Origin: a bacterium
GTDB taxonomy: Bacteria > Campylobacterota > Campylobacteria > Campylobacterales > Sulfurimonadaceae
Assembly: GCA_018822665.1 (NCBI GenBank)
Contig: JAHJJX010000012.1
Location: 1 to 43,891 of the forward strand
Direction: 5' to 3'
DNA length: 43,891 nt
The translations under genes were made by a program, and so were the position numbers. The notes below the pieces were generated by a model that had not been told where the DNA came from, searched no databases, and saw nothing but the letters and a program-made list of their open reading frames with translations. This document shows, in pieces, positions 10,964 to 43,891 of the stretch (the stretch's first letter is position 1; each line of letters begins with the position of its first letter).

Positions 10964-10966
10964 AAC

Positions 10967-15270: not shown

Positions 15271-15275
15271 GTTTA

Positions 15276-16868: not shown

Positions 16869-16893
16869 CACTGTTTGTGTTGTCTTGCCTCTT

Positions 16894-16904
16894 GGCATGT
16901 GGAA
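16894..16904 (-). repeat. TTCCACATGCC repeat, exact copy 4 (reverse), intergenic
   Basis: GGCATGTGGAA on the + strand, 25 nt after the rhlE stop. The GCC-TCTT-GGC sequence leading into it could form a small hairpin near the gene end. Confidence 0.85.
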
Positions 16905-16962
16905 TAATTTATACTAAAGACAATAAATAGTAGAATAGTTCCAGTTCAAAAGAGGGGGATGC

Positions 16963-26858: not shown

Positions 26859-26905
26859 TTTTTCTCCCAAATGTTAAATATTTTTTTATGATTGCAGTGT
26901 AGAAA

Positions 26906-29390: not shown

Positions 29391-29608
29391 AGTGCGTCTC
29401 CCATTAAAAAAGTTCGCAATTGTAAAAAAGTTTGGTTACATAAAGGTTACTAAATGCGTGTGAAATTTTTACATGTATTGCACTACGTTTGCCGCTAAAA
29501 TGAAGTGTTACATTTCGTATCTGAGCAGGAGATATTAAATAACAAATTAAGAAAGATAAGACTATAGTTTACGATTAACATGGAACTATTTTTTTTAAAG
29601 AGGTAGAT
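29391..29608. other. Divergent control region between pstC and the PiT gene
   Basis: 218 bp. The leftward side holds the Pho-box promoter of the pst operon (29419-29450). The rightward side shows a single GTTAC near 29507 and a weak TATAGT at about 29564 as the only candidate -10 for the PiT gene. On the + strand the same Pho box reads GTTAC-N6-GTTAC and is followed at 10 nt by TGAAAT, a poor -10, so bidirectional action is possible but unproven. Confidence 0.5.
29419..29450 (-). promoter_or_regulatory. Pho-box promoter of pstCAB-phoU
   Basis: Reading leftward: GTAAC (29450-29446), 6 nt, GTAAC (29439-29435), 10 nt, then TACAAT (29424-29419). Half-sites are perfect and 11 bp apart. The 11-bp direct-repeat layout matches PhoB-type boxes, and the GTTxC-N6-GTTxC form resembles the box reported for Campylobacter jejuni PhosR. 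It lies 29 bp before the pstC start. Confidence 0.8.
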
Positions 29609-31243
29609 ATGGAAATGATACAGACACTGAAGAAGATGGAAAAAGAAGCCTTAAAGAGTAGCGGGATTGATTTTATAAGGCTTGGTTTTGCACTTTTTTT
29701 TATGGTTGCTGTTTTGACATACAGCTTTTTAAATTCCGGGGGAGTGCCTAATAATGTGTTCTTAGCTATTGCGGCACTCTTTGGTGCCTACATGGCGATG
29801 AATATAGGGGCGAACGATGTTGCAAACAATGTCGGGCCTGCAGTCGGTTCAAAAGCGCTTACGATGGGGGGAGCGATTGTTATTGCGGCTATATTTGAAG
29901 CAGGCGGCGCTTTTATAGCAGGGGGTGACGTTGTTGAAACAATAAAAAAAGGGATTATCGATATCAATGCATTTGACGGCAATGTCAACTCCTTCATCTG
30001 GGCGATGATGGCGGCCCTTTTGGCCGCTGCCTTGTGGCTGAATTTTGCAACGGCTACTAAATCTCCTGTTTCTACCACACATTCCATAGTCGGCGGTGTT
30101 ATGGGTGCGGGTATTGCCGCAGCCGGATTTGAAATTGTCGCATGGGGAACAATGGGAAAAATTGCGGCTTCGTGGATTATCTCTCCGATTTTAGGCGGAA
30201 TTATAGCCGCAGCCTTTCTTTTTGCAATAAAAAAAACAATCATATATAAAGAAAATAAAACACAAGCGGCTATACAATGGGTGCCTATTTATGTCGCCGT
30301 AATGTCATGGGCATTTGTTACCTACCTAACACTTAAGGGTCTTAAAAAGGTTTGGCCTTCGATAGTCAAGGTCTTAGTTTTCCTCCCTGATGAAAAAAAA
30401 CCCTCTTTTATGGTGGCGGCAATTTTTGGACTCATAGCGGCAATTTTTATTTATTGGATAGTGAGAGCCTCTGTGAGAAAAAAAGGCAACACAATCCAAA
30501 ACAGCAGGAGCGGGGTTAATCTACTTTTTACAGTTCCTTTGATTTTTTCGGCAGCTCTTTTGAGTTTTGCGCATGGGGCAAACGATGTTGCCAACGCAAT
30601 CGGACCTTTAGCCGCAATTAACGATGCCGTGATGAGCGGCGGTATTTCGGAAAAAGCGGGCATACCGATATGGGTTATGGGAGTGGGAGCGATAGGGATA
30701 GCAATAGGGCTTGCACTTTATGGACCAAAGCTGATTAAAACGGTGGGAGGGGAGATTACGGAGCTCGATCAGATGAGAGCATTTTCTGTCGCCATGGCTG
30801 CTTCGGTTACGGTTATCATCGCTTCTCAGCTGGGACTTCCCGTTTCTTCCACGCATATAGCGATAGGGGGAATTTTCGGTATAGGTTTTTTAAGGGAGTA
30901 TCTTCAGGCAAATCATGAAAAAGATATCGTAGTGCACGAGCAGGGGGTGCTTAGAGATGAGAAAAAATTACTCAAAGCCTTTGGCGGCGAACTCAGAACG
31001 CTAGAAGCCAAAGCAGGCAAACAAAAAGAGGATTATGAAAGAATCGTGAGTCTCTATAAGATGATTGATGAAGAAGAAGAGAAGGTAAAAGAATCTAAAA
31101 AACATTTAAAAAGTGCAGAAAAAGTGAGATATGTCAAAAGAGATGCAGTGAAAAAAATTGTTGCGGCATGGGTTGTCACGGTTCCTGCCGCGGCGCTCTT
31201 GTCTGCAATGATTTATTTTATGATACGCGGCATTGTGCTTTGA
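29609..31243 (+). CDS. pit: PiT-family inorganic phosphate transporter
   Basis: A low-affinity, ion-coupled phosphate permease in the inner membrane. The 544-residue protein carries both PiT signatures: GANDVANNVGPAVGSKA (about 66-82) and HGANDVANAIGPLAA (about 320-334), with SPVSTTHSIVGGVMGAG and GLPVSSTHIAIGGIFG following each. About ten hydrophobic segments are visible. Between about 430 and 515 lies a soluble, strongly charged coiled-coil segment (KQKEDYERIVSLYKMIDEEE) before the last membrane span; this looks like a cytoplasmic regulatory insert and is a little unusual. AGAGGT precedes the ATG at 29609. The second PPK2 gene follows after 34 bp, so imported Pi and polyphosphate metabolism are probably coexpressed. 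Confidence 0.93.
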   Translation: MEMIQTLKKMEKEALKSSGIDFIRLGFALFFMVAVLTYSFLNSGGVPNNVFLAIAALFGAYMAMNIGANDVANNVGPAVGSKALTMGGAIVIAAIFEAGGAFIAGGDVVETIKKGIIDINAFDGNVNSFIWAMMAALLAAALWLNFATATKSPVSTTHSIVGGVMGAGIAAAGFEIVAWGTMGKIAASWIISPILGGIIAAAFLFAIKKTIIYKENKTQAAIQWVPIYVAVMSWAFVTYLTLKGLKKVWPSIVKVLVFLPDEKKPSFMVAAIFGLIAAIFIYWIVRASVRKKGNTIQNSRSGVNLLFTVPLIFSAALLSFAHGANDVANAIGPLAAINDAVMSGGISEKAGIPIWVMGVGAIGIAIGLALYGPKLIKTVGGEITELDQMRAFSVAMAASVTVIIASQLGLPVSSTHIAIGGIFGIGFLREYLQANHEKDIVVHEQGVLRDEKKLLKAFGGELRTLEAKAGKQKEDYERIVSLYKMIDEEEEKVKESKKHLKSAEKVRYVKRDAVKKIVAAWVVTVPAAALLSAMIYFMIRGIVL

Positions 31244-31277: not shown

Positions 31278-32105
31278 ATGAAAGGGAAAAAAAAGAACAA
31301 TAAAGATGCAAAAGTTCAAGTCTGGGTTAAAAAAGAGAAATTGGCGTATGACAATGAATTAACAAAACTGCAGGTCGAACTTTTAAAATTTCAATACCAT
31401 GTAAAAGATAAAGGTCTTAAAATTTTAATGATATTTGAGGGTCGTGATGCCGCAGGCAAGGGTGGTACGATTAAAAGAATCACAGAATATTTAAACCCAA
31501 GGGGTGCTCGGGTGGTGGCTCTTGAAAAGCCAAGCGACAAAGAAACAACGCAATGGTATTTTCAACGCTACGTATCACATTTACCGGCTGCGGGGGAGAT
31601 AGTTTTATTTGACAGAAGTTGGTACAACAGGGCAATGGTTGAACCTGTTATGGGTTTTTGTACAGAAAGACAACATCATAAATTTCTAAAAGATGCTCCT
31701 GAATTTGAAAAGATGATTGTGGATGAAGATATAAAAATTTTTAAATTTTATTTTTCAGTTTCTAAAAAAGAGCAGGCAAAAAGGTTTAAAGCAAGAGAAA
31801 CCAATCCTTTGAAACAGTATAAGCTCTCTTGGGTAGATAAAGAGTCGCAAAAGTTGTGGGATGAATACACGCTAGCAAAATTTATGATGTTAAGCGCAAC
31901 GCATACCGAGTCTGCTCCTTGGACAATTGTTAAAAGCGATGACAAAAAAAAGGCGAGGCTCAATGCGATAAGACACATTTTAAATTTTGTGGATTATCCG
32001 GATAAGATTGGTGATGATGAGATACTTGTCGATAAAGGGGTGATTGTATTTGGTCGGGATGAGGCTATCGAGATGGAGAAAAATTTTAAGTTTTTAAGTA
32101 AATAA
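31278..32105 (+). CDS. ppk2: Polyphosphate kinase 2, second copy, paired with PiT
   Basis: A 275-residue class I-type PPK2. I chose the ATG at 31278 behind AAAGGGG; 15 codons upstream are in frame but overlap the PiT end. The Walker A is FEGRDAAGKGG (about 53-63), followed by TQWYFQRYVSHLP, DRSWYNRAMVE (112-122), the lid ARETNPLKQYKLS, and APWTIVKSDDKKKAR. It is clearly homologous to the copy at 9691 but differs at the N terminus, which here is Lys-rich (MKGKKKNNKDAKVQ). The enzyme interconverts polyphosphate and nucleoside polyphosphates. Linkage with a phosphate importer suggests storage or recovery of phosphate at the membrane. Confidence 0.92.
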   Translation: MKGKKKNNKDAKVQVWVKKEKLAYDNELTKLQVELLKFQYHVKDKGLKILMIFEGRDAAGKGGTIKRITEYLNPRGARVVALEKPSDKETTQWYFQRYVSHLPAAGEIVLFDRSWYNRAMVEPVMGFCTERQHHKFLKDAPEFEKMIVDEDIKIFKFYFSVSKKEQAKRFKARETNPLKQYKLSWVDKESQKLWDEYTLAKFMMLSATHTESAPWTIVKSDDKKKARLNAIRHILNFVDYPDKIGDDEILVDKGVIVFGRDEAIEMEKNFKFLSK

Positions 32106-32232
32106 ACTTCGGTAAAAAAAGTTTTATTACAAAACGGTTACAAAATAATTCTTTATCCTCTTTTATTGTAATCATATTGTTACATTGTCCATTTATAATT
32201 TTGCCATCTTAAATTTAGACAAGGACATCAAT
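32106..32232 (+). other. pstS upstream region
   Basis: 127 bp between the second ppk2 and pstS. Besides the main Pho-box promoter at 32168-32199 it contains a second 11-bp-spaced pair, ATTAC-N6-GTTAC (32126-32141), about 40 bp further upstream, which could load additional regulator. AAGGA at 32221-32225 is the pstS ribosome site. Confidence 0.6.
32168..32199 (+). promoter_or_regulatory. Pho-box promoter of pstS
   Basis: GTAAT (32168-32172), 6 nt, GTTAC (32179-32183), 10 nt, then TATAAT (32194-32199). The spacing is identical to the pst, porin and DUF3450 promoters, with a perfect -10. It lies 33 bp before the pstS ATG. Confidence 0.8.
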
Positions 32233-33237
32233 ATGTTAAAGAGAATAGCCTCTGTTGCACTTATTGCAGCTGTAACTTTTAGTTCATCATTTGCAGGTGA
32301 TAAAATCAACGGTGCGGGTGCATCTTTTCCTGCTCCATTATATTATGATTGGGCATTTAACTATAAAAAAGACACTAAAAACAGTGTAAATTACCAATCT
32401 ATCGGTTCAGGCGGCGGAATCAAGCAAATCACTGAGCGTATCGTAGATTTTGGAGCATCCGACAAACCTTTAAAAACAAAAAATTTGACAGAAGCTAAAC
32501 TTTTACAGTTTCCTGCGGTCATCGGTTCTATCGTTATTGCCTTTAATGTTGAAGGAATTGCGGATGAGACTTTAAAATTAAGTAACAGCGTTGTTGCGGA
32601 TATCTTTGCAGGCAAAATCACAAAATGGAACGATGCGGCAATCGCAGCGGACAATAAAGGTCTGAAGCTTCCAAATCAAGAAATTATTGTAGTGCACCGT
32701 TCAGACGGAAGCGGTACGACGTATAACTTCACGTACTATTTAAGCGGAAGTTCTGAAAATTGGAAAAACAGCTATGGTACAGGTAAAGCAGTGGACTGGG
32801 CATGTGGAATCGGCGGAAAAGGTAACGAGGGTGTTGCAAACTTAGTAAAACAAACTCCGTTTTCTATCGGTTACATAGAAAATGCTTATAAAGAGAAAAA
32901 CAATCTTTCGGCTGCCGTGCTTAAAACAGCAAGCGGGAAATGGGTTGTTGCAAATGAAGAAAACTTCAAAGCTGCCGCAAAATATGCAAACTGGACGAAA
33001 GAAGATAATTTTTATGCAATGTTAGCGCTTCAGCCGGGTGACAATTCATACCCAATCGTTGCGGCAACTTTTATCTTGCTTCCTGTTGAAAAGGCAGACA
33101 CAAACAAACAAATCATTGCCTTTTACGACTATGCATTTAAGACAGGTGACGAATCAGCGAAAAAACTGGGTTATATAGCACTTCCTGAAGATACAAAAAA
33201 AATGATTCGCGAGTATTGGACAGCCAATATAAAATAA
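32233..33237 (+). CDS. pstS: Periplasmic phosphate-binding protein PstS
   Basis: The binding protein of the PstSCAB importer. The ATG at 32233 (AAGGA 7 nt ahead) opens a signal peptide (MLKRIASVALIAAVTFSSSFAG); the frame upstream runs through the promoter. In 334 residues the phosphate-contact loops GAGASFPAPLYYDW, SGGGIKQI and RSDGSGTTYNFTYYL are intact, as is DWACGIGGKGNEGV. It is monocistronic: its own Pho-box promoter precedes it and a terminator follows at 33275. The repeat GGCATGTGGAA at 32799 encodes part of the WACGI sequence. Confidence 0.97.
   Translation: MLKRIASVALIAAVTFSSSFAGDKINGAGASFPAPLYYDWAFNYKKDTKNSVNYQSIGSGGGIKQITERIVDFGASDKPLKTKNLTEAKLLQFPAVIGSIVIAFNVEGIADETLKLSNSVVADIFAGKITKWNDAAIAADNKGLKLPNQEIIVVHRSDGSGTTYNFTYYLSGSSENWKNSYGTGKAVDWACGIGGKGNEGVANLVKQTPFSIGYIENAYKEKNNLSAAVLKTASGKWVVANEENFKAAAKYANWTKEDNFYAMLALQPGDNSYPIVAATFILLPVEKADTNKQIIAFYDYAFKTGDESAKKLGYIALPEDTKKMIREYWTANIK
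32799..32809 (-). repeat. TTCCACATGCC repeat, exact copy 10 (reverse)
   Basis: GGCATGTGGAA on the + strand inside pstS, within codons for Trp-Ala-Cys-Gly-Ile. Confidence 0.85.
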
Positions 33238-33367: not shown

Positions 33368-33391
33368 AGGGAAACAATAATGTAATGTGAT

Positions 33392-33423
33392 GTAATCATT
33401 ATGTAACCTAAGTGATTTATAAT
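33392..33423 (+). promoter_or_regulatory. Pho-box promoter of the porin gene
   Basis: GTAAT (33392-33396), 6 nt, GTAAC (33403-33407), 10 nt, TATAAT (33418-33423). A further GTAAT lies 10 bp upstream (33382-33386). The porin ATG follows 32 bp later. Confidence 0.8.
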
Positions 33424-33455: not shown

Positions 33456-34655
33456 ATGAAAAAAATCGTTCTTTCAGCTGTTGCTGCTTTGACAATAGGT
33501 TCAGTTGCTGCTTTGGCAAGTGAGGTACAATTTTATACAGATGCCAATGGACAGGTTTTCACACAAGAGGGTGAAGGACGTACTGCGTTAGAAAATAAAT
33601 CCACTTCATGGTACGCACATGCCGACAAGTTAAAATTTAATGCTTTGGCATATTTAGGATATGTGAATACCGATTTAAGAAACGACAATCAAGTTGGCGG
33701 CAATACAAGTGAATTTGAACTGCGCCGTATGTATTTTCAAGTAAAAGCACACCTTTTAGAAGACCCAAAAAGCTACTTTCGTGTAACGATGGATGCGACT
33801 ACAAAGGCTAATGATACATCTCCTGATACTTCAAAAGAGGAATACCAGGCTGTAATCATTAAATATGCTTATTTATATTTAAATGAAGTATTGCCTTTTA
33901 CGGGTGTTGAGATAGGGGTTGTTCACCGTCCTTGGATAGATTATGAAGAGCATAACGCATGGTTTTACCGTAACATAGCTAAAGTTTTTGTTGAAGCTGA
34001 CAACTCTGCTCACCTTACAAATTCAGCAGACCTTGGTGTGAACTTTAAAACAAGCACTCCGTATTTCTCAAGCGAAATTGGTATGTTTAACGGCGAAGGA
34101 TACCACAATGCAGAAGACGGTGCGGGTAACTCTTTAGAGTGGAGAGCAACAGCACACATTTTAGGAACGGGTAAAAAGCAAAAAGATAAATTTGCAAGCG
34201 TGACGTACTGGGATGCATCTTTCTTTGGACAGTACAATGTGGCAAGTGCCAAACATCAGGATTCTGCTACTCCAAACACAGATGATTTAGTATGGGGCGG
34301 TTTGCATACAGTGTTTAATATGCCTGCATTTATGCTTTCAGGACAGTATATAAAATCTCAAGACACTTCAGACAATGCGACACCTTATAAATATTCCGGT
34401 TCAGGATACAGTGTTCATACCGTAGCACGTTTTGGCGCAGGAAAAGATTATGCTGCTTTTGGCCGTTATGATTCATTTACTTCTGATTTAAAAGTAAATA
34501 CTAAAGAGCAGGAAAAAAGAACTTATATTGTTGGTGCATCATGGCAGCAAAATAAAAATATTCAGTGGATTGCGAATATTACAACAACAGACATAGACCA
34601 AGATTCAAGCAAAAACGGCAATGCGTATATGCTTAGTGCACAAGTAGAATTTTAG
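33456..34655 (+). CDS. Phosphate-selective porin-like outer-membrane protein (OprP/OprO type)
   Basis: A 399-residue outer-membrane channel. The signal peptide is residues 1-21 (ending ALAS). The chain is strand-rich, ends in Phe (LSAQVEF), and has length and pattern of 16-stranded phosphate-type porins: an early ELRRMYFQVKAHL strand, HRPWIDYEEHNAW, and a strand pair around NMPAFMLSGQYI. Its phosphate preference is inferred from resemblance to OprP-family porins and from the Pho-box promoter and pstS neighbour. AAGGAAGT precedes the ATG. It is monocistronic with its own terminator. A general porin induced by starvation is the alternative. Confidence 0.82.
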   Translation: MKKIVLSAVAALTIGSVAALASEVQFYTDANGQVFTQEGEGRTALENKSTSWYAHADKLKFNALAYLGYVNTDLRNDNQVGGNTSEFELRRMYFQVKAHLLEDPKSYFRVTMDATTKANDTSPDTSKEEYQAVIIKYAYLYLNEVLPFTGVEIGVVHRPWIDYEEHNAWFYRNIAKVFVEADNSAHLTNSADLGVNFKTSTPYFSSEIGMFNGEGYHNAEDGAGNSLEWRATAHILGTGKKQKDKFASVTYWDASFFGQYNVASAKHQDSATPNTDDLVWGGLHTVFNMPAFMLSGQYIKSQDTSDNATPYKYSGSGYSVHTVARFGAGKDYAAFGRYDSFTSDLKVNTKEQEKRTYIVGASWQQNKNIQWIANITTTDIDQDSSKNGNAYMLSAQVEF

Positions 34656-34793: not shown

Positions 34794-35474
34794 TTAGGCT
34801 AAGAGATAGCCCACCCCTCTTATGGTTTTAATGTACTCTTTTTTTCTTGTAGGGTCGATTTTTTCTTTTAATCTTTTGATGGCTACATTGACCGTTTTTT
34901 GGTGAATATTTTGTGAGTCCGTCCATATATTTTTGAGTAAAAAATCTCTGTCTAAAACTCTTCCCTTATTGGAAATCATAATCTTTAAAAGAGCAGTTTC
35001 GAGTTTTGTCAAGTCTATTTCCTGCGTATCAATCTTCACTTTATGCTGATTCAAATCCAAAACGATATCTCTGTATTTCATAGAATGTGCGCTCTGTGCC
35101 GAGCCTTTGGATGACCTTTTGAGTACGGCTTTGATTCTGAGTATGAATTCTTCGAGATTAAAAGGTTTTGTGATGTAATCATCGGCACCTCTTAAAAAAC
35201 CGTCTTTTATGTCTTCTGCGCTGTCTTTGGCAGATAAAAAGATGACGGGAGTGTTGATGTTTTTGCTTCGGAGCATCTCTATGTACAAACTGCCTTCTAT
35301 GTCAGGAAGATTTCTGTCCATAATAATGAGGTCTATGCTTTCTTCAGATAAAACCTGTCTCACATGTTTCGTGTTTAAAAAGCCAAGCACATCATAACCG
35401 GCATTTGTAAGATTATATTCTAGCAGTTCTAAGATATCATTGTCGTCATCTACTACCAATATATGCTCTTTCAT
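34794..35474 (-). CDS. phoB: PhoB-like OmpR-family response regulator
   Basis: A 226-residue transcription factor predicted to bind the 11-bp direct repeats found at the phosphate promoters in this window. Receiver domain: acidic Asp9-Asp11, phosphoacceptor Asp53 in IIMDRNLPD, FLSAKDS, and the Lys of YITKPF. The winged-helix domain (about 130-226) ends TIRGVGYLLA. Identity as PhoB (PhosR in Campylobacter) rests on family fit plus its place between the porin and the DUF3450-TonB operon; no histidine kinase gene is adjacent, so the sensor must lie elsewhere. A half Pho box with proper -10 spacing precedes it (35514-35534), consistent with autoregulation. Confidence 0.8.
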   Translation of the reverse strand: MKEHILVVDDDNDILELLEYNLTNAGYDVLGFLNTKHVRQVLSEESIDLIIMDRNLPDIEGSLYIEMLRSKNINTPVIFLSAKDSAEDIKDGFLRGADDYITKPFNLEEFILRIKAVLKRSSKGSAQSAHSMKYRDIVLDLNQHKVKIDTQEIDLTKLETALLKIMISNKGRVLDRDFLLKNIWTDSQNIHQKTVNVAIKRLKEKIDPTRKKEYIKTIRGVGYLLA

Positions 35475-35577: not shown

Positions 35578-38500
35578 CTAAATTTTGGCACTCAAAGAAA
35601 GAGAGTAAGAGCGTCCGGTTTTGTATTGCAAAGTAGTGTTGTCACCCTGTTTCCATGTTGTTTCACCGTCTAAAATATTATGTATTTTAAATGTGAGTTC
35701 TATATCTGAGTTTATTGTTTCTGATTTGAATTTTTCTATCCAAGTAAAATCAAGAAGGTGTGGCGGTATTTCATAATCATCCAATGCGTAAACCACATCA
35801 CCGTTTTTGAGTGCGACACGCATAAGTCTCTCAGACATTTTGTTGTAAGAGATATTTACACTTCTGTCATTCTCTTGATAGGTAAGCGATAGGTTGATAA
35901 CTTCAGGAGATAAGCCTTGCAAAGCTCTCTCTTGTGTAACAAACTTCTCTTTTTGTGCATCTGTTAGTTCAACTTTGGAATAAATATACGTGTAGTTTCC
36001 GGAAAATATAAAGTTGTCCAAATCATCATATAAAAATCCAAGGTTCTTGTACCAGCTAAGCTCAAAACCCGCCAAATCTGCCGATGCAGAGTTTTCGAAT
36101 GAGTATCGCTCAAGCGTGGAAGTTGTAAATGTCTGCACATCTTCTATGGGATTTTGCATATTTTTATAAAAAAGCGATGCTGTAATGTTGTCGATGGCAT
36201 CAAAATAAAATCCATACTGAAAATCTAAACTCTTGATATCTGTTTCAACCAAGTTAGGGTTTCCTGCAACGGTCGCAAGAAATTCGGGGTGGGTAAATTC
36301 AGCATTGACAAATTCTCTAAAGTCAGGGTAGATAAATGTTTGCGAGTATGCAACTTTAAATTGATTTGCATCATCAAGCACATACTTTAGGCTTAAACTT
36401 GGCAATGTTTTTTGAAAATCAAGCGTATTGTTCTGTGTCGTTACGATGTTGTTTACTATCGCCCATTGGTCAATCGATTCACTCAAGTTCACCTGTCTTA
36501 CACCAAAAGTTATATCCATATTTTGGCTGGGTTTTATCATCGATTTGAAATAGACTGCGTTTCTCTCAAGTGAAGCATCATACTGGTCTTTTGGTCTTGA
36601 AAGAAGGTCATACGTCAAAGCGCTTGCGTCAGCGTATGAAAGCACCCCATCAATCGGCCCTGTCGTTATCGCCGTATCTGTAATGGTGCTTTGAACTCGC
36701 AGTCTGTTGATTCTCCCTTGTCTCTCTTTTTGTTCAACCATAGCTCCAAGTTCAACATAATCCTCATCGCTGAGCATAGGAATAAGGGAACGATTTTTAA
36801 GGTAGGCGCTAAAAAGATTATCGTTCGTTGTTCTGTTGGTAAAGGTAAGCTCGCTTTGTCTGGCAATAAATGCGTAAGGGTCCTGGACTCTTAACTTTTT
36901 ATAGTTGTAGTAAACGTCATTTGGAACATACTCGTTGGCAGTCGCAAACTCCAAGCCGAAATCAAATCTATTTTGCACAAATAAACTATAATCAAGCCCG
37001 CCGTTGAGCTGGTCAATATTGAGCTCTCTTTCTTGCCATTCAAGATAATTTTGCTGTTCGATAGAGTTGTTCTCACCAAATGTTCCCTCAATAAATCTTG
37101 TTTGATTTGTGGTGTTGAGTACATAAAGTTTCGTATATTTCGCATCAAAATTTTGATATTTATAAGAAACGTTTACTAAGCCTCCATGCTTAATGCTCTC
37201 TTTATAAATATCGTTTGTAGCTGTATTGTCAGGAGTTGGATTTTGAACCCCGCTGCTTGAAATAAGATAATCATACGAGGTGTACTGTCTGGATTCTGCT
37301 TCACTTTTATACCCGTAACTCGCAAGCACACTTACTTCATGCGCATCGGCAACGGTAAAACTTCTGGATGCTTCGAGCGCTACTTCTCCACCCATAGGAA
37401 TAGAGGTTGATTTTTGGTTCAATTCTCTTGTTGTGGTGATGGCTTGCATCTCTTGATTTGTGTAGTTTAGACTAGGCTGTCTTTCTCCGATGACAGGCGT
37501 GAGGGATTGGATGAAATTACTTGAAAAGGGTCTGTATGAACTGTCATAACCGCTCCAGTCACTGCTTGAACCCTGATAGGATGTAGCATTTTTCCCCGTA
37601 GTGCTATGCGCGTTCATTCCAAGCTTGATTTTTGCATAATCCTCTTCACTCTCTTGTTTTGTTCTTACATTCACATAACCGCCGCCAAAAGCACCCGTTA
37701 TATCGGATGAGAAAGTTTTTTGTACCTGTAAACTGCCTATAACTCCACTTGGAAACATATCCAAAGGGACTGTTCTTTTGATAGGGTTGGGTGAGGGCAA
37801 AGGCATTGCGTTGAGCTCCGTACTGGAGTATCTGTCTCCAAGACCGCGAACATAAATATATTTTCCTCCCATAATGGTAATTCCCGCAACTCTTTTTAAA
37901 GCACTGGCTGCGGTGGAGTCCCCTTGCTTGGACATCTGCTGGGAACCTATGACATTTGCAATAGAATCGCTGTTTTTTTCTTCCGCAATCATTGCGGCAA
38001 CGCTTCCTTCAATCTGGGGAGCAAGAACTATAAACTCTTCTAGTTCCATAGATGCGGGTGTCATCTCAATATATTTATTGATGCTGTCTTTTGCGATTAC
38101 ACTTACTTTTATTGTCTGGGAACTGAAATCGCTGTGAATAATCGAGATAGTCTGCTCACCCTCGGGAAGTGTAAGCTGGGCAAAACCTTTATCGCTACTT
38201 TGGATATCCACATGCAGCCCTTTTACAAATATGCGTGCATTTTGGATAGGCGCTTGATTGTCTGTTGAGAGCAAAGAGAGAAGCACCACCCCGTTTTCTT
38301 TACGCTCTTTTTGCGTAATTTTATTCTCAGCCACCGCCGATACAGGCACTTCAGCGTCCATAAAAGCAAAAGTATTGTCTTGATTGAGAGATAAAATCAA
38401 TTGTGATTCTTTACCCTCTTTGATAATAAAATTTTTTCTTGCAAAGGCTTGGGGTATATTTTTATCTTTTGCAAGGAGTTGCAGCTGGTATGTACCCACT

Positions 38501-38703
38501 GGCAAAACGGTATAGGAGTAGCCGTCTTTGTCTGTTTCAAATTCTAAATGTTTTTTAAAACTTTCATTATTGTTTTTTTTAAAGAGAAGCACTTCTTGCT
38601 TGCTGAGGGGTTTACCGTCTTTCATTACAAACAAAGACAATTCTCCTGTTGGCGCGGCGAAGAGAGAGATTGCCCATGCCATCAATATAATTATGAGTTT
38701 CAT
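35578..38703 (-). CDS. TonB-dependent outer-membrane receptor with two N-terminal carboxypeptidase-regulatory-type domains
   Basis: A 1041-residue outer-membrane active transporter. A signal peptide (1-16) is followed by two beta-sandwich domains (about 18-115 and 140-215, each with a GxxxLPxGxYxL-like turn such as VLPVGTYQLQLL). The plug follows (SALKRVAGITIMGG, YIYVRGLGDRYSSTELN), then a 22-strand-size barrel. The final residues (LSLSAKI) lack a terminal aromatic, slightly atypical. It is the last gene of the seven-gene leftward operon that includes its own TonB and ExbBD, and overlaps the TPR gene by 4 nt. The Pho box at the operon head suggests a phosphorylated or phosphate-related ligand, but substrate is not identifiable from sequence. 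Confidence 0.88.
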   Translation of the reverse strand: MKLIIILMAWAISLFAAPTGELSLFVMKDGKPLSKQEVLLFKKNNNESFKKHLEFETDKDGYSYTVLPVGTYQLQLLAKDKNIPQAFARKNFIIKEGKESQLILSLNQDNTFAFMDAEVPVSAVAENKITQKERKENGVVLLSLLSTDNQAPIQNARIFVKGLHVDIQSSDKGFAQLTLPEGEQTISIIHSDFSSQTIKVSVIAKDSINKYIEMTPASMELEEFIVLAPQIEGSVAAMIAEEKNSDSIANVIGSQQMSKQGDSTAASALKRVAGITIMGGKYIYVRGLGDRYSSTELNAMPLPSPNPIKRTVPLDMFPSGVIGSLQVQKTFSSDITGAFGGGYVNVRTKQESEEDYAKIKLGMNAHSTTGKNATSYQGSSSDWSGYDSSYRPFSSNFIQSLTPVIGERQPSLNYTNQEMQAITTTRELNQKSTSIPMGGEVALEASRSFTVADAHEVSVLASYGYKSEAESRQYTSYDYLISSSGVQNPTPDNTATNDIYKESIKHGGLVNVSYKYQNFDAKYTKLYVLNTTNQTRFIEGTFGENNSIEQQNYLEWQERELNIDQLNGGLDYSLFVQNRFDFGLEFATANEYVPNDVYYNYKKLRVQDPYAFIARQSELTFTNRTTNDNLFSAYLKNRSLIPMLSDEDYVELGAMVEQKERQGRINRLRVQSTITDTAITTGPIDGVLSYADASALTYDLLSRPKDQYDASLERNAVYFKSMIKPSQNMDITFGVRQVNLSESIDQWAIVNNIVTTQNNTLDFQKTLPSLSLKYVLDDANQFKVAYSQTFIYPDFREFVNAEFTHPEFLATVAGNPNLVETDIKSLDFQYGFYFDAIDNITASLFYKNMQNPIEDVQTFTTSTLERYSFENSASADLAGFELSWYKNLGFLYDDLDNFIFSGNYTYIYSKVELTDAQKEKFVTQERALQGLSPEVINLSLTYQENDRSVNISYNKMSERLMRVALKNGDVVYALDDYEIPPHLLDFTWIEKFKSETINSDIELTFKIHNILDGETTWKQGDNTTLQYKTGRSYSLSLSAKI

Positions 38704-39848
38704 AGTTCACACTCCCAACGGTTATTTTTACATTTTTGCATGTTTTTTCTAAGTTCAGTCGATTTTTTAAACAGGTCCGTATGGGTAATTTTTTTAAGCT
38801 CAGTTTCGCAGTTTTCATAATCACCGTTCATGTAATACGCATATGCCAAGGCATAACGGATATTTTCATCTTCAATGAGCTCGCTTCTGTAGATGGCACC
38901 TTTGCTTGCAACAATTCTTTCATACGCTTCATATTCTATAAAAATAGCAATACGCTGTTTGAGTTTCTCTTTTGTATCTAACATCTGAGCGTTTTTATAG
39001 AGAGCCAGATTGAACTCTTTTGCACGACGCATCATCTCTGCTGCTTCTTTTGTGTATTTGTTATCTTCTATGGAAGCTTCATCAAACAAATCTGCAGCCG
39101 CTTGAATCATCCCCTTGTCTAAATATAAATGTGCGAGAAGCACCGTTGCTTCAGCACTCTGTATAAAACGTAGATTTACCTGTTCGGCCAAAGCGATAGC
39201 CTTGTCCACGGCTCCCCCTTTTCTGAGTGCCGAGACAAAGGATAAAGATGTTTTTTCATTAGGTTTGGCATTTGCCAGATAGATGTTGGCATTTTCCAAG
39301 GCACTCTGATAGAGTTGAAGCGCTATGAGATAATTAAATCTTTGTTTATAAAAATCATATTCATGAGGAAATCTCTTGTTTGCTTCATTTAATGTACTCA
39401 GAGCATTGTCAATCTGCTCCAATCTCCAGTAGCATTCTGCTTGAAGTGCAAAAAGAGAGGGCTTGTCATCCACTAAAGTACCGGCATTAGAAATCGCCTG
39501 CAAAGCGGCTTTATAGTCTTGAAGCTTAAAACTATTTTGTGCCATATAAAGATAAATGGATTTATCTTCTTGACCCGCAGCGATGGATTGAAGAAAAAAA
39601 TCATTTGCTTGGGAATAATTTTCCTGTTTCGTGGATACCAAACCTTTTAGGGTGTAATATTTGATTGTATCTATAGCTTTATCTTCAAGGTTGACCTGAT
39701 TTAATTCATCATTTGCACGCAGTATATGTCCATCTTTAAAAAGAAGTGCCGCGAGCGAAATATGGTCTATTTCATCTGTGTTTTTTTTCTTATCGGCAGC
39801 AACGAGCGTTAAGCTGAGTATTAAACATAAAATTAAAATTTTTTTCAT
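38700..39848 (-). CDS. Periplasmic tetratricopeptide-repeat protein of the TonB operon
   Basis: A 382-residue exported protein: signal peptide 1-18 (ending LVAAD), then about eight to nine TPR-type helix pairs (for example YYTLKGLVSTKQENYSQAND and SLFALQAECYWRLEQIDNAL), plus a C-terminal pair of cysteines (ENCETEL, MQKCKNN). Proteins of this type are encoded with TonB2/TtpC systems in Vibrio and related bacteria and are thought to assist the TonB complex. It overlaps the receptor gene by 4 nt (ATGA) and follows tonB by 8 bp. Confidence 0.85.
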   Translation of the reverse strand: MKKILILCLILSLTLVAADKKKNTDEIDHISLAALLFKDGHILRANDELNQVNLEDKAIDTIKYYTLKGLVSTKQENYSQANDFFLQSIAAGQEDKSIYLYMAQNSFKLQDYKAALQAISNAGTLVDDKPSLFALQAECYWRLEQIDNALSTLNEANKRFPHEYDFYKQRFNYLIALQLYQSALENANIYLANAKPNEKTSLSFVSALRKGGAVDKAIALAEQVNLRFIQSAEATVLLAHLYLDKGMIQAAADLFDEASIEDNKYTKEAAEMMRRAKEFNLALYKNAQMLDTKEKLKQRIAIFIEYEAYERIVASKGAIYRSELIEDENIRYALAYAYYMNGDYENCETELKKITHTDLFKKSTELRKNMQKCKNNRWECEL

Positions 39849-39856
39849 TACTATTC

Positions 39857-40486
39857 CTACTGCAAATCAAATCTGATTTTTTGTTTGGCCCAAACTTTTA
39901 CTGCTTCGCCCTTGTATTGAGCCGGTTTGAACTGCCAACTTTTAACACCTTCTATGGCCGCTTCATCAAAAATACCCTCGGGCTCCGATTCAAGCACTTT
40001 TACTTTTTCAACTTCGCCCTCTTTGTTCACGAGTAAATTCATGAGGACATAACCTGACACACCCATCTTGCGAGCTTGTTTTGGGTACTCCATGGCGGAG
40101 CGTTGTGTCGGCTGCGGAGCAGAGTCCACAGAATCTTCACTCATAACCATATTTTTGCTTACGTCACCCAACAAGCTTTCATCCATATTCAATTCATTAC
40201 TCATAAAAGCATCTAAACCGGTATCGATACCGCTTAAAGAAGAGCTGAGTGTCGGTGCCGGAGCAGTTCTTTTTGGTTTGGAAGGCTCAGGTTTCTTTTT
40301 TGGTTCAGGTTTTGGCTTAGGCTTAGGTTTTACAAGCTTTTGCACATTAAGCTCACTGCTCTCTTTTGTAGTATTTTGCTTTAAATCTGTACCTTCGTGA
40401 TTCATAAGTATCACGGTGAAAAAGACAAAAAAGATTCCAAAAAGCATCCATACTATTGCTTTAAGGTGGTTTTTTAGCTGATTCAC
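39857..40486 (-). CDS. tonB: Energy transducer TonB
   Basis: Carries inner-membrane energy to the outer-membrane receptor. I prefer the GTG at 40486, which follows the exbD stop by one base with AGAGG about 9 nt ahead (209 residues); a TTG at 40513 in frame would add nine residues. Residues about 10-30 are the membrane anchor (VWMLFGIFFVFFTVILM). A Pro/Lys periplasmic spacer follows (KPKPKPKPEPKKKPEPSKPK). The C-terminal TonB domain has YPKQARKMGVSGYVLM and a final WQFKPAQYKG block. The anchor lacks the SxxxH motif seen in E. coli TonB, as is usual in TonB2-type proteins. Confidence 0.9.
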   Translation of the reverse strand: MNQLKNHLKAIVWMLFGIFFVFFTVILMNHEGTDLKQNTTKESSELNVQKLVKPKPKPKPEPKKKPEPSKPKRTAPAPTLSSSLSGIDTGLDAFMSNELNMDESLLGDVSKNMVMSEDSVDSAPQPTQRSAMEYPKQARKMGVSGYVLMNLLVNKEGEVEKVKVLESEPEGIFDEAAIEGVKSWQFKPAQYKGEAVKVWAKQKIRFDLQ

Positions 40487-40487
40487 T

Positions 40488-40892
40488 TTAGCCAACCTCT
40501 TTTTGTGTCGCAACTGCTACATCTTTGGCACCGCTAAGGCGGCACTGATCCACTACGTTTATAAGTTTCTCAACTGCGATAGTCTCATCAGCAACAACTA
40601 AAACCGAGCCCTCCGTAGAAGCTCTTAACATATCTCTGAGTTTTCCTTGTATAGCCCATACTTTTACAGGCTGTCCATCTACGTATGTTTCACCGACATT
40701 GTCTATGTACACACGAATAACTTTGCTTGAAGCTTTTGAAGCGGATGAAGCCCCGGGGCGGTTCAGGTCTAGTTTCATATCTTTAACAAAGGTAGAACTC
40801 ACCATAAAAAAGATTAACAGGATAAATACCATATCAATCAATGGCGACATATCTACGCTACTTTCGGCAGATCTTCTTGGTCTAAAACGCAT
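40488..40892 (-). CDS. exbD: ExbD-type proton channel subunit
   Basis: A 134-residue protein with one membrane span (about 16-36). The essential membrane Asp is in DMSPLIDMVFILLIFFMV (Asp20). The periplasmic domain shows the ExbD pattern (VYIDNVGETYVDGQPV, VLVVADETIAVEKLINVVD). With ExbB it forms the proton-driven motor for TonB. It starts on the base after the ExbB stop region (40893) and tonB begins one base after its own stop, so the genes are tightly coupled. Confidence 0.95.
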   Translation of the reverse strand: MRFRPRRSAESSVDMSPLIDMVFILLIFFMVSSTFVKDMKLDLNRPGASSASKASSKVIRVYIDNVGETYVDGQPVKVWAIQGKLRDMLRASTEGSVLVVADETIAVEKLINVVDQCRLSGAKDVAVATQKEVG

Positions 40893-41486
40893 TTACACTC
40901 CTTCTGAACACAATATGTCTTTTACTTGCTCTAATTCAAGCTCCATGACATTTGCTTTTTTATCTAAAATACGACCTATTATCAGCCCCGGAACAGCTAC
41001 AATCAGTCCAAGTTGCGTTGTGAAAAGCGCTTGAGAAATTCCACCTGCAATACCACCGCTTTGACTAAAAAGTTCCGCACTAGCTAAGGAGTCAAAAGTT
41101 TCAATCATCCCTATAACGGTTCCAAGCAATCCTATCAAAGGAGCTGCGGCTACAATCGTTCTTACAATTGTCTCAAACTGATGAAGTTCAACAAGATATT
41201 TACCAAATGCATCATCAAGATATCTTCTTGTTGATGCGGTATGCCCGTAGGTATCTACAATGGCGATTGCTTCAACAATAGCTCCATCTATCAAACCTCT
41301 CGGCTTTGTTCTAATACCTTCGCTAAATTTTCTGACAAGGTTGCGAACGTTAGCGTTTGAGCCGCGGTTTAATGCATGAAAACGAAAACCGATTGCATAC
41401 CAAAGTACGACTACTGAAGCTGCAAGCGGCCACATGACGAAGCCGCCGCTTTGCATATACTCCAAAAATTGTGTTAATAGTTCCAT
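40893..41486 (-). CDS. exbB: ExbB-type (MotA/TolQ/ExbB) proton channel subunit
   Basis: A 197-residue inner-membrane protein with three membrane spans (about 18-36, 105-128, 148-172). The conserved family block APLIGLLGTVIGMIETFD lies in the second, and GGISQALFTTQLGLIVAVPG in the third. It corresponds to ExbB2 of TonB2-type systems. It follows the larger TtpC-like gene by 2 bp and precedes exbD directly. Confidence 0.94.
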   Translation of the reverse strand: MELLTQFLEYMQSGGFVMWPLAASVVVLWYAIGFRFHALNRGSNANVRNLVRKFSEGIRTKPRGLIDGAIVEAIAIVDTYGHTASTRRYLDDAFGKYLVELHQFETIVRTIVAAAPLIGLLGTVIGMIETFDSLASAELFSQSGGIAGGISQALFTTQLGLIVAVPGLIIGRILDKKANVMELELEQVKDILCSEGV

Positions 41487-41488
41487 GG

Positions 41489-42802
41489 TTAGCGTTGCTT
41501 ATTGTACTCGTTAATCAAATGCAGTGCTGAATGCTCCATATGATCTTTGACTCTCTCTGCCCAACCGCTTAATAAATTACCAACCATTAATACAGGAATA
41601 GCCACAATCAGACCTAACTCCGTAGTAACCAGTGCTATGGATATACCGCCTGAAAGTAGTTTCGGGTCACCCGTACCAAATTCCGTAATGATGTCAAAAG
41701 TAGCTATCATCCCCGTAACGGTACCAAGAAGACCAAGGAGCGGGGCAACGGCGGCAATTACTAAAATAGCTGAACCATAGCTGTCAAGGCGACCGCTTTC
41801 ATGCAGGATAGATTCAGCAACGATATCTTCTATATGTTCACGGTCCCTATCGAGATTACGAAGCGTTGCTTTGAGAACACGAGCAGTTGAGCCTTTTTTA
41901 TCTTTAAGATACTCCAGCGCACTCTCAACATTGCCCTCAAGCAATTTCGTTAAAGTTGATTTTGCGAGGTTTTCGGCTGTAGAGCTTGCACTTATTAAAA
42001 AAACGGATCTTAAAATCGCCAGCAATAAACCAACCAGACCAAGAACAACAATGACCCATCCGATAATACCGCCGGAGTTAATAATGTCAAAAGTTGTTTT
42101 TTCTAAAACGTCGTCAATCTCTTTGGCATCATTTTCATAAATAAAAATATTTAAAGGTTTAGACAAATCATTTTTCAACAAAGCGCTTGCAGTTGCTGTC
42201 GCTTCGGGTGCATTGTAAACTTTGAATTTACCGCTTCCGGCTGGAACCAAAGCTCCCGATGCATCGGGAGATATACCAAAGTTTGCAATATTTCCAACAT
42301 GAATAATCGTTCCCTCTTTTTCACTGCCATCAGCGACATAAAATTTACCGCTCTCGCTTCTTAGCGTGCTAAGACGGGAGATAAGCGTATTGGTATTTTC
42401 AAATATATTTGCCAAAGCATCTTGATAATTATCGGGATTAACCTCTACATCAATGCCGTAAGGTTTTAATGCGGATGTTGACTGCATCATAACAGATTCG
42501 ATTAATGCCGTGTCATCGGTTATGAGCTGTGAATTTTGATGTGCGCGGAAAAGGTCATCAGAGAGTTTTTCGCTTTGTGCATTTTTTTGCAACACAATAT
42601 TTTGTAATGCAGAAAGTTCTGTTTTTATTTGAGACAAATTTTTATTTTGGCTTTCTTTGATGGTTTGCAGACGCTGTGTCAACATTGTTTTTTGTGCTTT
42701 AAGGTAAGCAAATTCTTTTGCATAAGCACGTTCGAGTTCCGTTTCGGTTGCTGCAAAAAGAGTGATGCTTAGTGCAATAAAAATGGCGATAATAGCTTTC
42801 AT
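41489..42802 (-). CDS. ttpC: TtpC-like large MotA/TolQ/ExbB protein
   Basis: A 437-residue second ExbB-family subunit with an added periplasmic region. A signal peptide (1-17) is followed by a long coiled-coil periplasmic part (about 20-110: ELERAYAKEFAYLKAQKTML), a mixed region to about 235, then three membrane spans (about 242-265, 335-360, 385-405) with the channel block APLLGLLGTVTGMIATFD. This layout is that of TtpC, the extra component required by Vibrio TonB2 systems. It overlaps the DUF3450 gene by one base and is followed by exbB after 2 bp. Confidence 0.9.
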   Translation of the reverse strand: MKAIIAIFIALSITLFAATETELERAYAKEFAYLKAQKTMLTQRLQTIKESQNKNLSQIKTELSALQNIVLQKNAQSEKLSDDLFRAHQNSQLITDDTALIESVMMQSTSALKPYGIDVEVNPDNYQDALANIFENTNTLISRLSTLRSESGKFYVADGSEKEGTIIHVGNIANFGISPDASGALVPAGSGKFKVYNAPEATATASALLKNDLSKPLNIFIYENDAKEIDDVLEKTTFDIINSGGIIGWVIVVLGLVGLLLAILRSVFLISASSTAENLAKSTLTKLLEGNVESALEYLKDKKGSTARVLKATLRNLDRDREHIEDIVAESILHESGRLDSYGSAILVIAAVAPLLGLLGTVTGMIATFDIITEFGTGDPKLLSGGISIALVTTELGLIVAIPVLMVGNLLSGWAERVKDHMEHSALHLINEYNKQR

Positions 42803-43560
42803 TATTTAACCTCCGTCATAACAATGGCATTTGGCAAAGTAAAATATCCTGTGCGGATTTGTTTTTTAAATGCATCAAATAGATTTAAAATCTGACTTTT
42901 TTCTTCTTTTGAAAGAGCCTCTTTATAGAACCAGCCCTGAGAATCTTTGCTCACATAACCGACACTCTCATCGGGTGTTTTAAAATACATCATCATCGTA
43001 CCGATACGCGCTACTTCAGCTAAACGCTCTTTGCCATCAAGGGTAATCGTTTGTTTAAAAAGACCATTTTCTTTTGTCATACGAATAGCATCGCTATAAG
43101 TGTTCCATGTCAATGCCAAGGCTTTTTGCGGTGTGATTAAATCATTTTGAATCTGTTCTTTGATTTTTGCAATATCATTGAGACGCTCGGCAGTTTTAAA
43201 AGGCAGAGAAGTTTGAATATTTTCTTCTAACAAATCAAGCGCACTCAGTAACAGAGGCTTTAAACCCTCAGAGTTTTTGCCGGCTTCCTTAATCTCTTTG
43301 TGAACTTTTGAAAGTTCTTGTTGAATCTGTTTTATTTTAAGATCTTCTCTTGCAATAACCGACTCCAAGTCGTCTTTTTGACGAAGAAAAGATTTCATAG
43401 ATGCTTTGTAAGTATCTTTTTCATCACTGATTGAACTATCAAGCTGTTCTACATCCGCGCGTAATTTCATTAAAGACTCTGCCATATTTTCAGAGTTGGC
43501 CGTGAGTGCCGTTACTGACAGCAGCAGGCTTAAGGCGATACTAATAGTTGTATTAGACAT
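42802..43560 (-). CDS. DUF3450 periplasmic coiled-coil protein, first gene of the TonB operon
   Basis: A 252-residue exported protein of the DUF3450 family, which is regularly encoded at the head of TtpC-ExbBD-TonB operons; its precise role is unknown. I chose the ATG at 43560 (GGGGAG 5 nt ahead) because it opens a signal peptide (MSNTTISIALSLLLSVTALTANS); the frame upstream runs through the promoter. Residues about 25-105 form a coiled coil (SLMKLRADVEQLDSSISDEK). The remainder is globular with conserved-looking WFYKEALSKEEK. A Pho-box promoter starts 30 bp upstream. Confidence 0.85.
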   Translation of the reverse strand: MSNTTISIALSLLLSVTALTANSENMAESLMKLRADVEQLDSSISDEKDTYKASMKSFLRQKDDLESVIAREDLKIKQIQQELSKVHKEIKEAGKNSEGLKPLLLSALDLLEENIQTSLPFKTAERLNDIAKIKEQIQNDLITPQKALALTWNTYSDAIRMTKENGLFKQTITLDGKERLAEVARIGTMMMYFKTPDESVGYVSKDSQGWFYKEALSKEEKSQILNLFDAFKKQIRTGYFTLPNAIVMTEVK

Positions 43561-43589
43561 GGGCTCCCCATATAGATTAAGATGGTGGA

Positions 43590-43621
43590 ATAGTATAAAA
43601 CGGGGGTTACTCGAAAGATAC
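43590..43621 (-). promoter_or_regulatory. Pho-box promoter of the DUF3450-TonB operon
   Basis: Leftward: GTATC (43621-43617), 6 nt, GTAAC (43610-43606), 10 nt, TACTAT (43595-43590). The geometry is the same as at pstC, pstS and the porin. TATACT two bases earlier is an alternative -10. No other promoter is obvious for this seven-gene unit. Confidence 0.7.
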
Positions 43622-43649
43622 TTTTTGGAAACATTTTGGGAACATTGTC

Positions 43650-43735: not shown

Positions 43736-43891
43736 TTATTTTGTTGTCAGCGCATCATCCGCATCAAGTCTAGTTTGCGCATCCGTTGCACCTGCACCAT
43801 CAGCTATAAGAGCGGCAGTTACAGAAACATCTTTGAAAGCGATAGCGGCTTTTTGGTCAACACTAAATGCAAGTTTCGTATGAATACCGGC
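43736..43891 (-). CDS. C-terminal 51 codons of an unidentified gene, start outside the window
   Basis: The minus-strand frame is open from the window edge to a TAA at 43736 and is too short for a full gene. The residues read as Ala-, Asp- and Thr-rich (KLAFSVDQKAAIAFKDVSV, then GAGATDAQTRLDADDALTTK). The composition suggests a secreted, repetitive or surface protein, possibly Ca2+-linked, but that is only an impression. A strong hairpin terminator follows its stop codon. I do not recognise it. Confidence 0.6.
   Translation of the reverse strand, partial: AGIHTKLAFSVDQKAAIAFKDVSVTAALIADGAGATDAQTRLDADDALTTK

Follow-up and report, generated by a model that had tools for sequence, protein, structure and literature searches.

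A TonB2-type motor under apparent phosphate control in Campylobacterota, with a receptor barrel and a lipoprotein that change together around it

TonB systems are seen as iron, vitamin and glycan machines, often running on shared motors. The closest described motor is the TonB2/Ttp system of Vibrio (TtpB2-TtpC2-ExbB2-ExbD2-TonB2-TtpD2), and passages of PMC6957404 report that TonB2-driven iron uptake in Vibrio vulnificus requires TtpB2, a DUF3450 protein, and TtpD2, a tetratricopeptide-repeat (TPR) protein. The closest described pairs of a lipoprotein with a TonB-dependent receptor (TBDR) are those of Caulobacter, where passages of PMC2996285 give the order ElpS (cc0170), cc0171 (the TBDR), gspC-N and describe ElpS release as dependent on the type II secretion system (T2SS), and of the Flavobacterium johnsoniae phoBR operon, where, in passages of PMC8115612, low phosphate induces the receptor Fjoh_0545 and the lipoprotein FII (Fjoh_0546), and the identity of FI-FIII to the Caulobacter protein is said to be 31-36%. 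Several Caulobacter TonB receptors are controlled by PhoB, according to parts of PMC11208175. Here we analyse a stretch of DNA, called the window, that coincides with contig C2 (43,891 bases), one of the 44 contigs into which a 2.5 Mb genome is assembled, and in which a Ttp-type motor, its receptor and a lipoprotein would together form a phosphorus importer under phosphate control.

At positions 35578-43560 of the minus strand the window holds a tight operon, DUF3450-TtpC-ExbB-ExbD-TonB-TPR-TBDR, the gene ends of which overlap or nearly touch, just as the initial annotation had described it. The features of the operon and of its upstream region are as follows.

42802-43560, minus: DUF3450 protein (TtpB-like), 252 aa from the ATG at 43560; PF11932, 4.4e-32
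41489-42802, minus: TtpC-like ExbB paralogue with a long N-terminal extension before the MotA_ExbB domain, 437 aa; PF01618
40893-41486, minus: ExbB, 197 aa; PF01618
40488-40892, minus: ExbD, 134 aa; PF02472, one of three ExbD matches in the genome
39857-40513, minus: TonB, up to 218 aa; PF03544, one of four TonB_C matches in the genome
38700-39848, minus: TPR protein (TtpD-like), 382 aa
37675-38703, minus: TBDR residues 1-343, N-terminal extension, likely TonB box (residues 218-233) and plug
35578-37674, minus: TBDR residues 344-1041, beta-barrel
43592-43597, minus: putative -10 element TATACT, read from the sequence
43601-43644, minus: Pho box of the operon, four half-sites with an 11-bp period, score 16.7
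43736-43891, minus: end of the lipoprotein gene, C-terminal 51 aa and stop, cut by the contig end

The gene content is that of the Vibrio TonB2/Ttp system, with DUF3450 first and TPR last as in passages of PMC6957404; unlike it, the operon has Pho boxes instead of Fur sites and its own TBDR and lipoprotein in the cluster. Since Fur control was not found in the window, the locus is filed as a Ttp variant and not as a Vibrio TonB2 iron system. The statement of the initial annotation that DUF3450 proteins lack a defined role is out of date, because TtpB2 and TtpD2 are essential for TonB2-driven iron uptake in Vibrio vulnificus; for DUF3450 the Vibrio mutants (PMC6957404, in part) speak to necessity and not to the mode of action. 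The DUF3450 protein of the window is the sole match in its genome at E 0.001, and its start is most likely the ATG at 43560 behind GGGGAG rather than the TTG of the longest frame. As the genome has four TBDR, four TonB_C and three ExbD matches, the TonB set of the operon is one of several. The nearest motor genes are those of a Sulfurimonas metagenome-assembled genome (MAG; L104), with 74% identity over 768 columns, which makes a campylobacterote akin to Sulfurimonas the most likely host.

The operon is not the whole unit: a gene for a predicted beta-helix lipoprotein, with a Pho box of its own, stands ahead of it. Thus, although all the genes named in the initial annotation are present, the system called complete there had missed the lipoprotein at its head, which is the best clue to its function. 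The gene is split by the assembly, with its C-terminal end in the window and its start, a 136-aa N-terminus carrying the lipobox TGCG, on contig C18 (L141:6069-6476); the two pieces match the L037 lipoprotein with 61% (residues 7-152) and 54% (residues 368-415) identity. In relatives the gene is internally repeated, several carrying similar or near-identical tandem domains, and assembly breaks of this kind may hide the gene in draft genomes.

The relatives were sampled in two ways. DUF3450 matches over the family cut-off occur in 18 of the 298 sampled genomes of the class, and 17 stretches were taken from 16 of these 18, the window's own genome and G263 (a borderline match) being excluded. The nine loci with low-scoring DUF3450 all have the seven genes of the operon, arranged as in the window, so that the Ttp set DUF3450, TtpC, ExbB, ExbD, TonB, TPR is found in order in the window and in 9/9 close relatives. 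Seven of these nine have upstream, on the same strand, a protein of 381-823 aa that carries a lipobox and beta-helix domains, mostly two of them; L043 has its lipoprotein gene behind the receptor gene, as is seen in its named copy L115, and in L040 the contig ends there. The eight high-scoring loci (L044-L051) are a different Ttp operon with no close receptor homologue downstream, L051 having a distant one (26%) on the operon's other side; the label "other Ttp operons" used below for them implies nothing about cargo. Moreover, the genome contigs were scanned with the lipoprotein domain, which gave 299 relatives, and the best 80 were kept as 77 loci (duplicate contigs, as judged by their lengths and identical matches: L054=L041, L055=L039, L065=L042, L087=L035 and L115=L043; near copies L066/L071). 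These are mostly titled Campylobacterota (Sulfurimonas, Sulfurovum, Sulfuricurvum, Hydrogenimonas, Thiovulum and one Arcobacter), with three gammaproteobacteria and a few other or vague titles. At least one of the seven genes is present in 67/77 loci and all seven in 53, the ten loci with none being short in nine cases (at most 11 kb) and of 20.6 kb in one (L130); in 56 of the 71 loci where the gene after the lipoprotein is visible, it is DUF3450, in the same orientation. A loose lipobox pattern is present in 66/82 of the relatives' lipoprotein frames.

The phosphate control of this TonB set is well supported in sequence by the Pho boxes of the window and of relatives, by the linkage to pst and PhoB-like genes and by the lack of a Fur signal. 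On the same contig there are PstS, PiT, PPK2, a porin-like gene and pstCAB-phoU; the PhoB-like gene, which the initial annotation had placed next to the operon, comes after the TBDR, and pstS lies 2.3 kb from the operon.

34794-35474, minus: PhoB-like response regulator; its best NCBIfam models are PhoB, below their cut-offs
33456-34655, plus: protein presumed porin-like, with no Pfam or NCBIfam match
33391-33423, plus: Pho box of the porin-like gene, the top three-half-site score in the window; in the matrix training set
32233-33237, plus: PstS; TIGR00975, over the cut-off
32167-32188, plus: Pho box before pstS, two half-sites; in the matrix training set
29609-31243, plus: PiT phosphate permease; PF01384, 7.8e-110
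29419-29451, minus: Pho box of pstC-pstA-pstB-phoU; in the matrix training set
26187-29390, minus: pstC-pstA-pstB-phoU, from recognition of the translations

Here pstCAB, phoU and PPK2 are what we take these genes to be from recognition of their sequences, with no model run. The regulator gene scores 175.9 against 296.2 bits (TIGR02154) and 180.6 against 270 bits (NF053854), and it is therefore called no more than PhoB-like.

A half-site matrix was trained on 18 upstream regions, all of them belonging to pstS, pstC, PiT or porin-like genes and four lying in the window. The box of the operon, TGTTCCC-4-TGTTTCC-4-AGTATCT-4-AGTAACC, begins 84 bp before the ATG and is followed by TATACT; its four-half-site score of 16.7 is equalled by 1/2000 dinucleotide shuffles, which bears out the Pho box claimed for this promoter. 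The lipoprotein promoter on contig C18 likewise has four half-sites 84 bp before the ATG, with a score of 18.4 reached by 0/1000 shuffles. For the relatives, scored with three half-sites, the bar was set at 13.5, the 95th percentile of 183 other promoters; the window's operon promoter was left out of these groups, which were not thinned for relatedness. Above the bar are 15/18 training regions, 31/64 DUF3450, 42/76 lipoprotein and 9/30 PhoB-like upstream regions, as compared with 10/183 other promoters and 3/383 operon-internal upstream regions. In the other Ttp operons the seven testable promoters score at most 4.0 against the bar of 13.5; these operons represent a second Campylobacterota Ttp operon type. 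It is noted that the exact pattern GTWAY-6-GTWAY-6-GTWAY finds two sites genome-wide, neither in the window, and is too strict, since the window's boxes fail it. The boxes are like those of the Pho regulon in being 11-bp direct repeats with pst neighbours, and unlike those of the classic regulon in being GTAAC-like with up to four half-sites, under a PhoB-like gene that is below the model cut-offs.

A different control has been weighed, in which the set would take up ferric phosphate or a ferric chelate under phosphate control, or would be a TonB2 iron system with Pho-like sites by chance. The Ttp system tested in PMC6957404, by its passages concerned, serves iron, the best-ranked solved folds for the receptor are PhuR and FecA (though iron, heme or cobalamin receptors make up most of the solved TBDRs listed), and on one Pseudoalteromonas plasmid the homologous genes have siderophore genes beside them. 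However, the best Fur match in the operon promoter is 11 of 19, which is also what shuffles give most often and thus at chance level, as had been anticipated for this promoter, and the Fur matches in the relatives' promoters show no excess over other promoters; moreover, the Pho boxes, the pst linkage and the lack of siderophore genes among the flanking genes, which were scanned in part, all speak against iron, and we hold this reading to be very unlikely. Iron control of the operon was dropped as a candidate on the Fur scan.

The linkage to phosphate genes extends to relatives. Among the loci with at least three operon genes, 30/63 hold, in the fetched DNA and at the stated identity bars, PhoB-like (27), pst (6) or PiT (3) genes, as do 19/35 loci of 18 kb or more, and 0/8 of the other Ttp loci (two of the eight being short). 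In L110 the order is pstS, a 464-aa unknown frame, pstCAB, lipoprotein, operon, with a gap of about 150 bp from pst to the lipoprotein gene; in L129 it is pstCAB-phoU-lipoprotein-operon with a gap of about 110 bp before the lipoprotein gene, and L099 has the same order with a 155-aa opposite-strand frame between phoU and the lipoprotein gene. In L124 (444-14072) and L126, which are MAGs titled Halothiobacillaceae and gammaproteobacteria, the motor, TBDR, a 361-aa unknown frame, a PstS-like gene, the lipoprotein gene, two permease genes and pstB stand in one row. Note also that among the flanking open reading frames scanned, 10 of the 125 listed plus 13 from the first nine loci, there is no phosphatase or siderophore gene; the scan gave porins, a PstS-like protein, an acyltransferase, a desaturase, an aminotransferase, a subtilase, a restriction enzyme and others, families that suggest no ligand.

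The second and new result concerns how the parts of the cluster vary. For 47 of the 80 loci, kept for having complete enough genes (51 in another run), we compared the similarities of the lipoprotein, the TBDR barrel, the TBDR N-terminal part (extension, TonB box and plug) and the motor (TtpC, ExbB and DUF3450). The TBDR N-terminal part follows the motor (r 0.91), while the lipoprotein follows the barrel (r 0.85), with a partial correlation given the motor of 0.81 that is reached in 0/2000 permutations; the lipoprotein and the TBDR N-terminal part correlate with 0.52 given the motor and with 0.07 given the barrel (214/2000 permutations). In all 15 pairs of loci with motors at least 75% identical, the barrel and the lipoprotein are in step, none having one high and the other low: four pairs have barrels of 23-28% and lipoproteins of 33-44% identity, five have 40-54% and 40-49%, and six have 61-99% and 62-100%. 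There are thus two modules, one of the motor with the TBDR plug end and one of the lipoprotein body with the TBDR barrel.

Since row permutation does not fully remove relatedness, three close pairs with breakpoints provide more independent evidence, and in each of them only the lipoprotein and the barrel interrupt the similarity. In L036/L037, from two single-contig genomes, the DNA is 85-91% alike from pstA into about the first 90 bases of the lipoprotein gene; the lipoprotein body is unalignable, and the DNA is then 87% alike from 56 bp past its stop to receptor codon 343, after which the barrel is unalignable, the likeness returning (91%) 4 bp past the receptor stop. Each of these two genomes has one match to the L037 receptor, at its own locus. 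L117/L123 are 83% alike from 191 bp past the L117 lipoprotein stop to receptor codon 320 and are alike again from 20 bp past the receptor stop, the comparison reaching no further upstream than the lipoprotein gene, where the contig of L123 begins; behind its lipoprotein gene L123 carries an additional frame. In L067/L113 the likeness (79%, then 70%) runs from 119 bp past the stop of the lipoprotein gene to roughly codon 370 and resumes 34 bp past the receptor stop, with two short similar stretches further upstream.

The window broadly fits the same rule. Among 48 loci, six have the nearest barrels (54-62%), and five of these six are also the best matches to the C-terminal piece of its lipoprotein (31-53 bits), all others, L123 (the sixth) among them, having at most 23.1 bits, and the motors of these six are not the nearest motors. 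The N-terminal piece gives rank correlations of 0.69 with the barrel and 0.12 with the motor; for the C-terminal piece, which is short, the values of 0.33 and 0.28 can hardly be told apart.

These data suggest that the motor stays the same while the receptor barrel and the lipoprotein vary jointly, as a matched pair, and the simplest reason would be that the lipoprotein captures its ligand on the receptor. On another explanation the joint change is an evasion of phages or bacteriocins that use the pair as their receptor, with no change of ligand. TBDRs are common phage and colicin receptors, and the plug end is spared; against this, loop changes in one partner would suffice unless the two bind each other. 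We regard evasion as unlikely, and as it concerns the cause of the swaps it can go together with import. More tentatively, it is possible, though we would rather not presume it, that a fixed phosphate-controlled TonB2-type motor with its plug receives cassettes of lipoprotein and barrel, swapped by recombination for other phosphorus sources or surface identity, with the cargo handed to Pst.

The TBDR has the Pfam domains PF07715 (plug) and PF00593 (barrel) and one carboxypeptidase-regulatory-like domain at 146-226, its model (pLDDT 82.6) shows a second beta domain at about 19-106, and the disordered stretch 218-233 with the conserved MELEEFVVLAP is the likely TonB box. The model matches solved TBDRs; the score of 194 is below the cut-off of 310 of TonB-Xanth-Caul (TIGR01782). 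The modelled domain of the L069 lipoprotein is a beta-helix (pLDDT 96.7), for which the fold search (VIA) gives a tailspike with Z 23.1, a root-mean-square deviation of 3.1 and 264 aligned residues, and AlgG epimerase with 22.2, others being within 1; among the 50 Foldseek matches listed, TM is at most 0.46 by query length and at most 0.59 by target length, and these values give the fold class only. When solved structures were searched by sequence, the TBDR had no match at E 0.001 and the lipoprotein none at E 0.1. At twelve lipoprotein positions, D or E makes up at least 98% of the residues present (45 rows); these include E145, D170, D171, E174, D192, D193, D196, D198, E220 and D242, with coil-like spacing, which suggests a possible metal or polyanion site.

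Joining the Pho boxes, the pst linkage and the TonB motor, we read the cluster as fairly probably a trans-envelope phosphorus importer in the Pho regulon, in which a TonB2-type motor has been recruited and a matched lipoprotein-receptor pair catches the phosphorus source. Upon phosphate starvation, as the Pho boxes suggest, the PhoB-like regulator would turn on pst, the lipoprotein gene and the operon. The beta-helix lipoprotein would bind at the cell surface a phosphorus-bearing substrate, or a polymer carrying it, and then, as the joint change suggests, dock on the TBDR barrel. The dedicated TtpB-TtpC-ExbB-ExbD-TonB-TtpD motor, acting on the TonB box, would power the TBDR to import the substrate, which by the gene linkage would end at PstS and PstCAB. 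Of the idea that the set is aimed at a phosphorus source, the phosphate control is thus well supported, while a phosphorus ligand for the receptor is a likely inference from sequence. The pair would work like BtuB-BtuG, SusC-SusD and TbpA-TbpB, each a TBDR with a surface lipoprotein (an analogy; PMC10404256, in part); unlike those partners, the present lipoprotein has a beta-helix fold, and no sequence link is claimed.

Homologous pairs occur in other phyla. The lipoprotein domain matches 21 of 72,556 plasmid records, and the receptor has 49 matches, of which 20 were listed, 19 of these sharing records with lipoprotein matches, as compared by eye; nine plasmid neighbourhoods were read from an incomplete gene table. 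An Alteromonas macleodii plasmid has phoB, phoR, a PstS-type gene, an oxygenase gene, the lipoprotein gene, the TBDR gene and the DUF3450 operon; four Pseudoalteromonas plasmids have the DUF3450 operon, lipoprotein and TBDR genes; an Aureibacter plasmid has TBDR-lipoprotein, and a Marinobacter plasmid has the lipoprotein with no annotated TBDR. On the alphaproteobacterial Sphingomonas and Indioceanicola plasmids the lipoprotein and TBDR genes are followed by T2SS genes, where other groups have the motor; the Sphingomonas lipoprotein homologue has 36.0% identity over half of the query (2e-15). By context and literature, the basis on which ElpS and Fjoh_0546 themselves were compared, the window lipoprotein would belong with the ElpS/FII type, low-phosphate lipoproteins with a TBDR partner: as in ElpS/CC0171 and Fjoh_0546/Fjoh_0545, it stands with a TBDR in a low-phosphate or phoBR context (PMC2996285 and PMC8115612, in part). 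Unlike the window, the pair adjoins T2SS genes in Caulobacter and on the two alphaproteobacterial plasmids, and a dedicated motor is not described for the Flavobacterium pair, the term ExbB being absent from PMC8115612. In the open-licence literature, with subscription journals and regulon databases outside the scope, no paper on a phosphate-controlled Ttp motor was found, nor is one treated in the passages concerned of PMC13367063 and PMC1790865.

For these promoters of other phyla (Alteromonadales etc.), scored with two half-sites and 200 shuffles each, the lipoprotein promoters of L134, L143 and L144 are reached by 0, 0 and 3 shuffles, phoB of L134 by 2, DUF3450 of L145 by 2 and the TBDR of L142 by 5, the best of nine control promoters being reached by 10. 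The scores are poor for the lipoproteins of L133 (17) and L145 (59), for DUF3450 of L134 (25), L143 (59), L144 (123) and L133 (167), and for the Sphingomonas (52) and Indioceanicola (114) genes. In the motor tree, which held no Vibrio sequence and carries a long-branch warning, 26 Campylobacterota-type Pho motors lie on one side of a branch (100/100), with seven other Ttp and five Alteromonadales operons on the other; a single clade of all Pho-type motors (Campylobacterota and Alteromonadales) is not rejected by the approximately unbiased test (p 0.151), and FastTree supports there are 0.18-0.39.

The T2SS neighbours bear on a reading in the opposite direction, where the TBDR and TonB would be needed for secretion of the partner lipoprotein, as in an Oar-type secretion receptor, for which passages of PMC6434023 give a precedent. 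Barrel and lipoprotein co-vary, which is what one expects of cargo and channel, and the same pair stands before T2SS genes on the two alphaproteobacterial plasmids where others have the motor. On the other hand, a T2SSG match is found in 9/10 operon-bearing genomes and a T2SS-like cluster on contig C26 of the window's genome, so that another exit for the lipoprotein may exist; the T2SS-dependent release of ElpS (PMC2996285, in part) and the PstS/PstCAB linkage in some relatives, which fits import, also speak against export, and we consider it very unlikely. TonB-driven export of the lipoprotein for want of a T2SS was dropped as the favourite on the T2SSG matches in 9/10 genomes.

Several points weigh against the phosphorus importer. 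It is read from sequence only, and the joint change could also stem from phage or bacteriocin pressure. With three half-sites the operon promoter scores 10.9 (11/2000 shuffles), under the relatives' bar of 13.5, and 33/64 DUF3450 and 34/76 lipoprotein upstream regions also fall under it. By the bars used, 33/63 loci, and 16/35 of those of at least 18 kb, have no phosphate gene in the fetched DNA. The operon itself holds no phosphatase or phytase, and the likeness of the lipoprotein is to beta-helix proteins that act on polysaccharides rather than to phosphate-binding proteins. On the four Pseudoalteromonas plasmids no pho or pst gene is annotated near the cluster, and on one of the four the siderophore genes adjoin it. 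Finally, passages of PMC2996285 mention, as data not shown, that Caulobacter CC0171 is expressed in poor medium as in rich, which sets it apart from ElpS.

Some further observations are recorded here. The window has two genes presumed PPK2-like, at 9691-10494 and, inside the phosphate island, at 31281-32105. On contig C26 (L140, G000), gsp-like genes (1035-11192) are followed by an 1852-aa frame (11360-16918) with the lipobox-like start TTGCSGG, a candidate secreted lipoprotein beside the T2SS-like cluster. The lipoprotein gene is opposite to the operon and faces the receptor gene's end in L066 and L071, follows the receptor in L075 and L115, and precedes it, with no motor genes recognised in the fetched DNA, in L100 and L109. 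Frames of 464 aa lie beside the receptor (L036:5039-6433, L037:4787-6181) and between pstS and pstC (L110:4406-5800), those of L036 and L110 having no Pfam match, and a 314-aa frame with weak cytochrome c matches (L116:10813-11757) lies between lipoprotein and receptor. The cluster in MAGs titled Bathyarchaeota (L088), Desulfobacteraceae (L077) and Desulfobulbales (L106) may reflect wrong bins or transfer.

In conclusion, a full motor, a receptor and a lipoprotein appear to be part of the phosphate response in many Campylobacterota. From sequence alone it can be told which part of the TBDR goes with the motor and which goes with the ligand side, and the joint change of barrel and lipoprotein makes the unexplained low-phosphate lipoproteins ElpS and FII testable as receptor partners.

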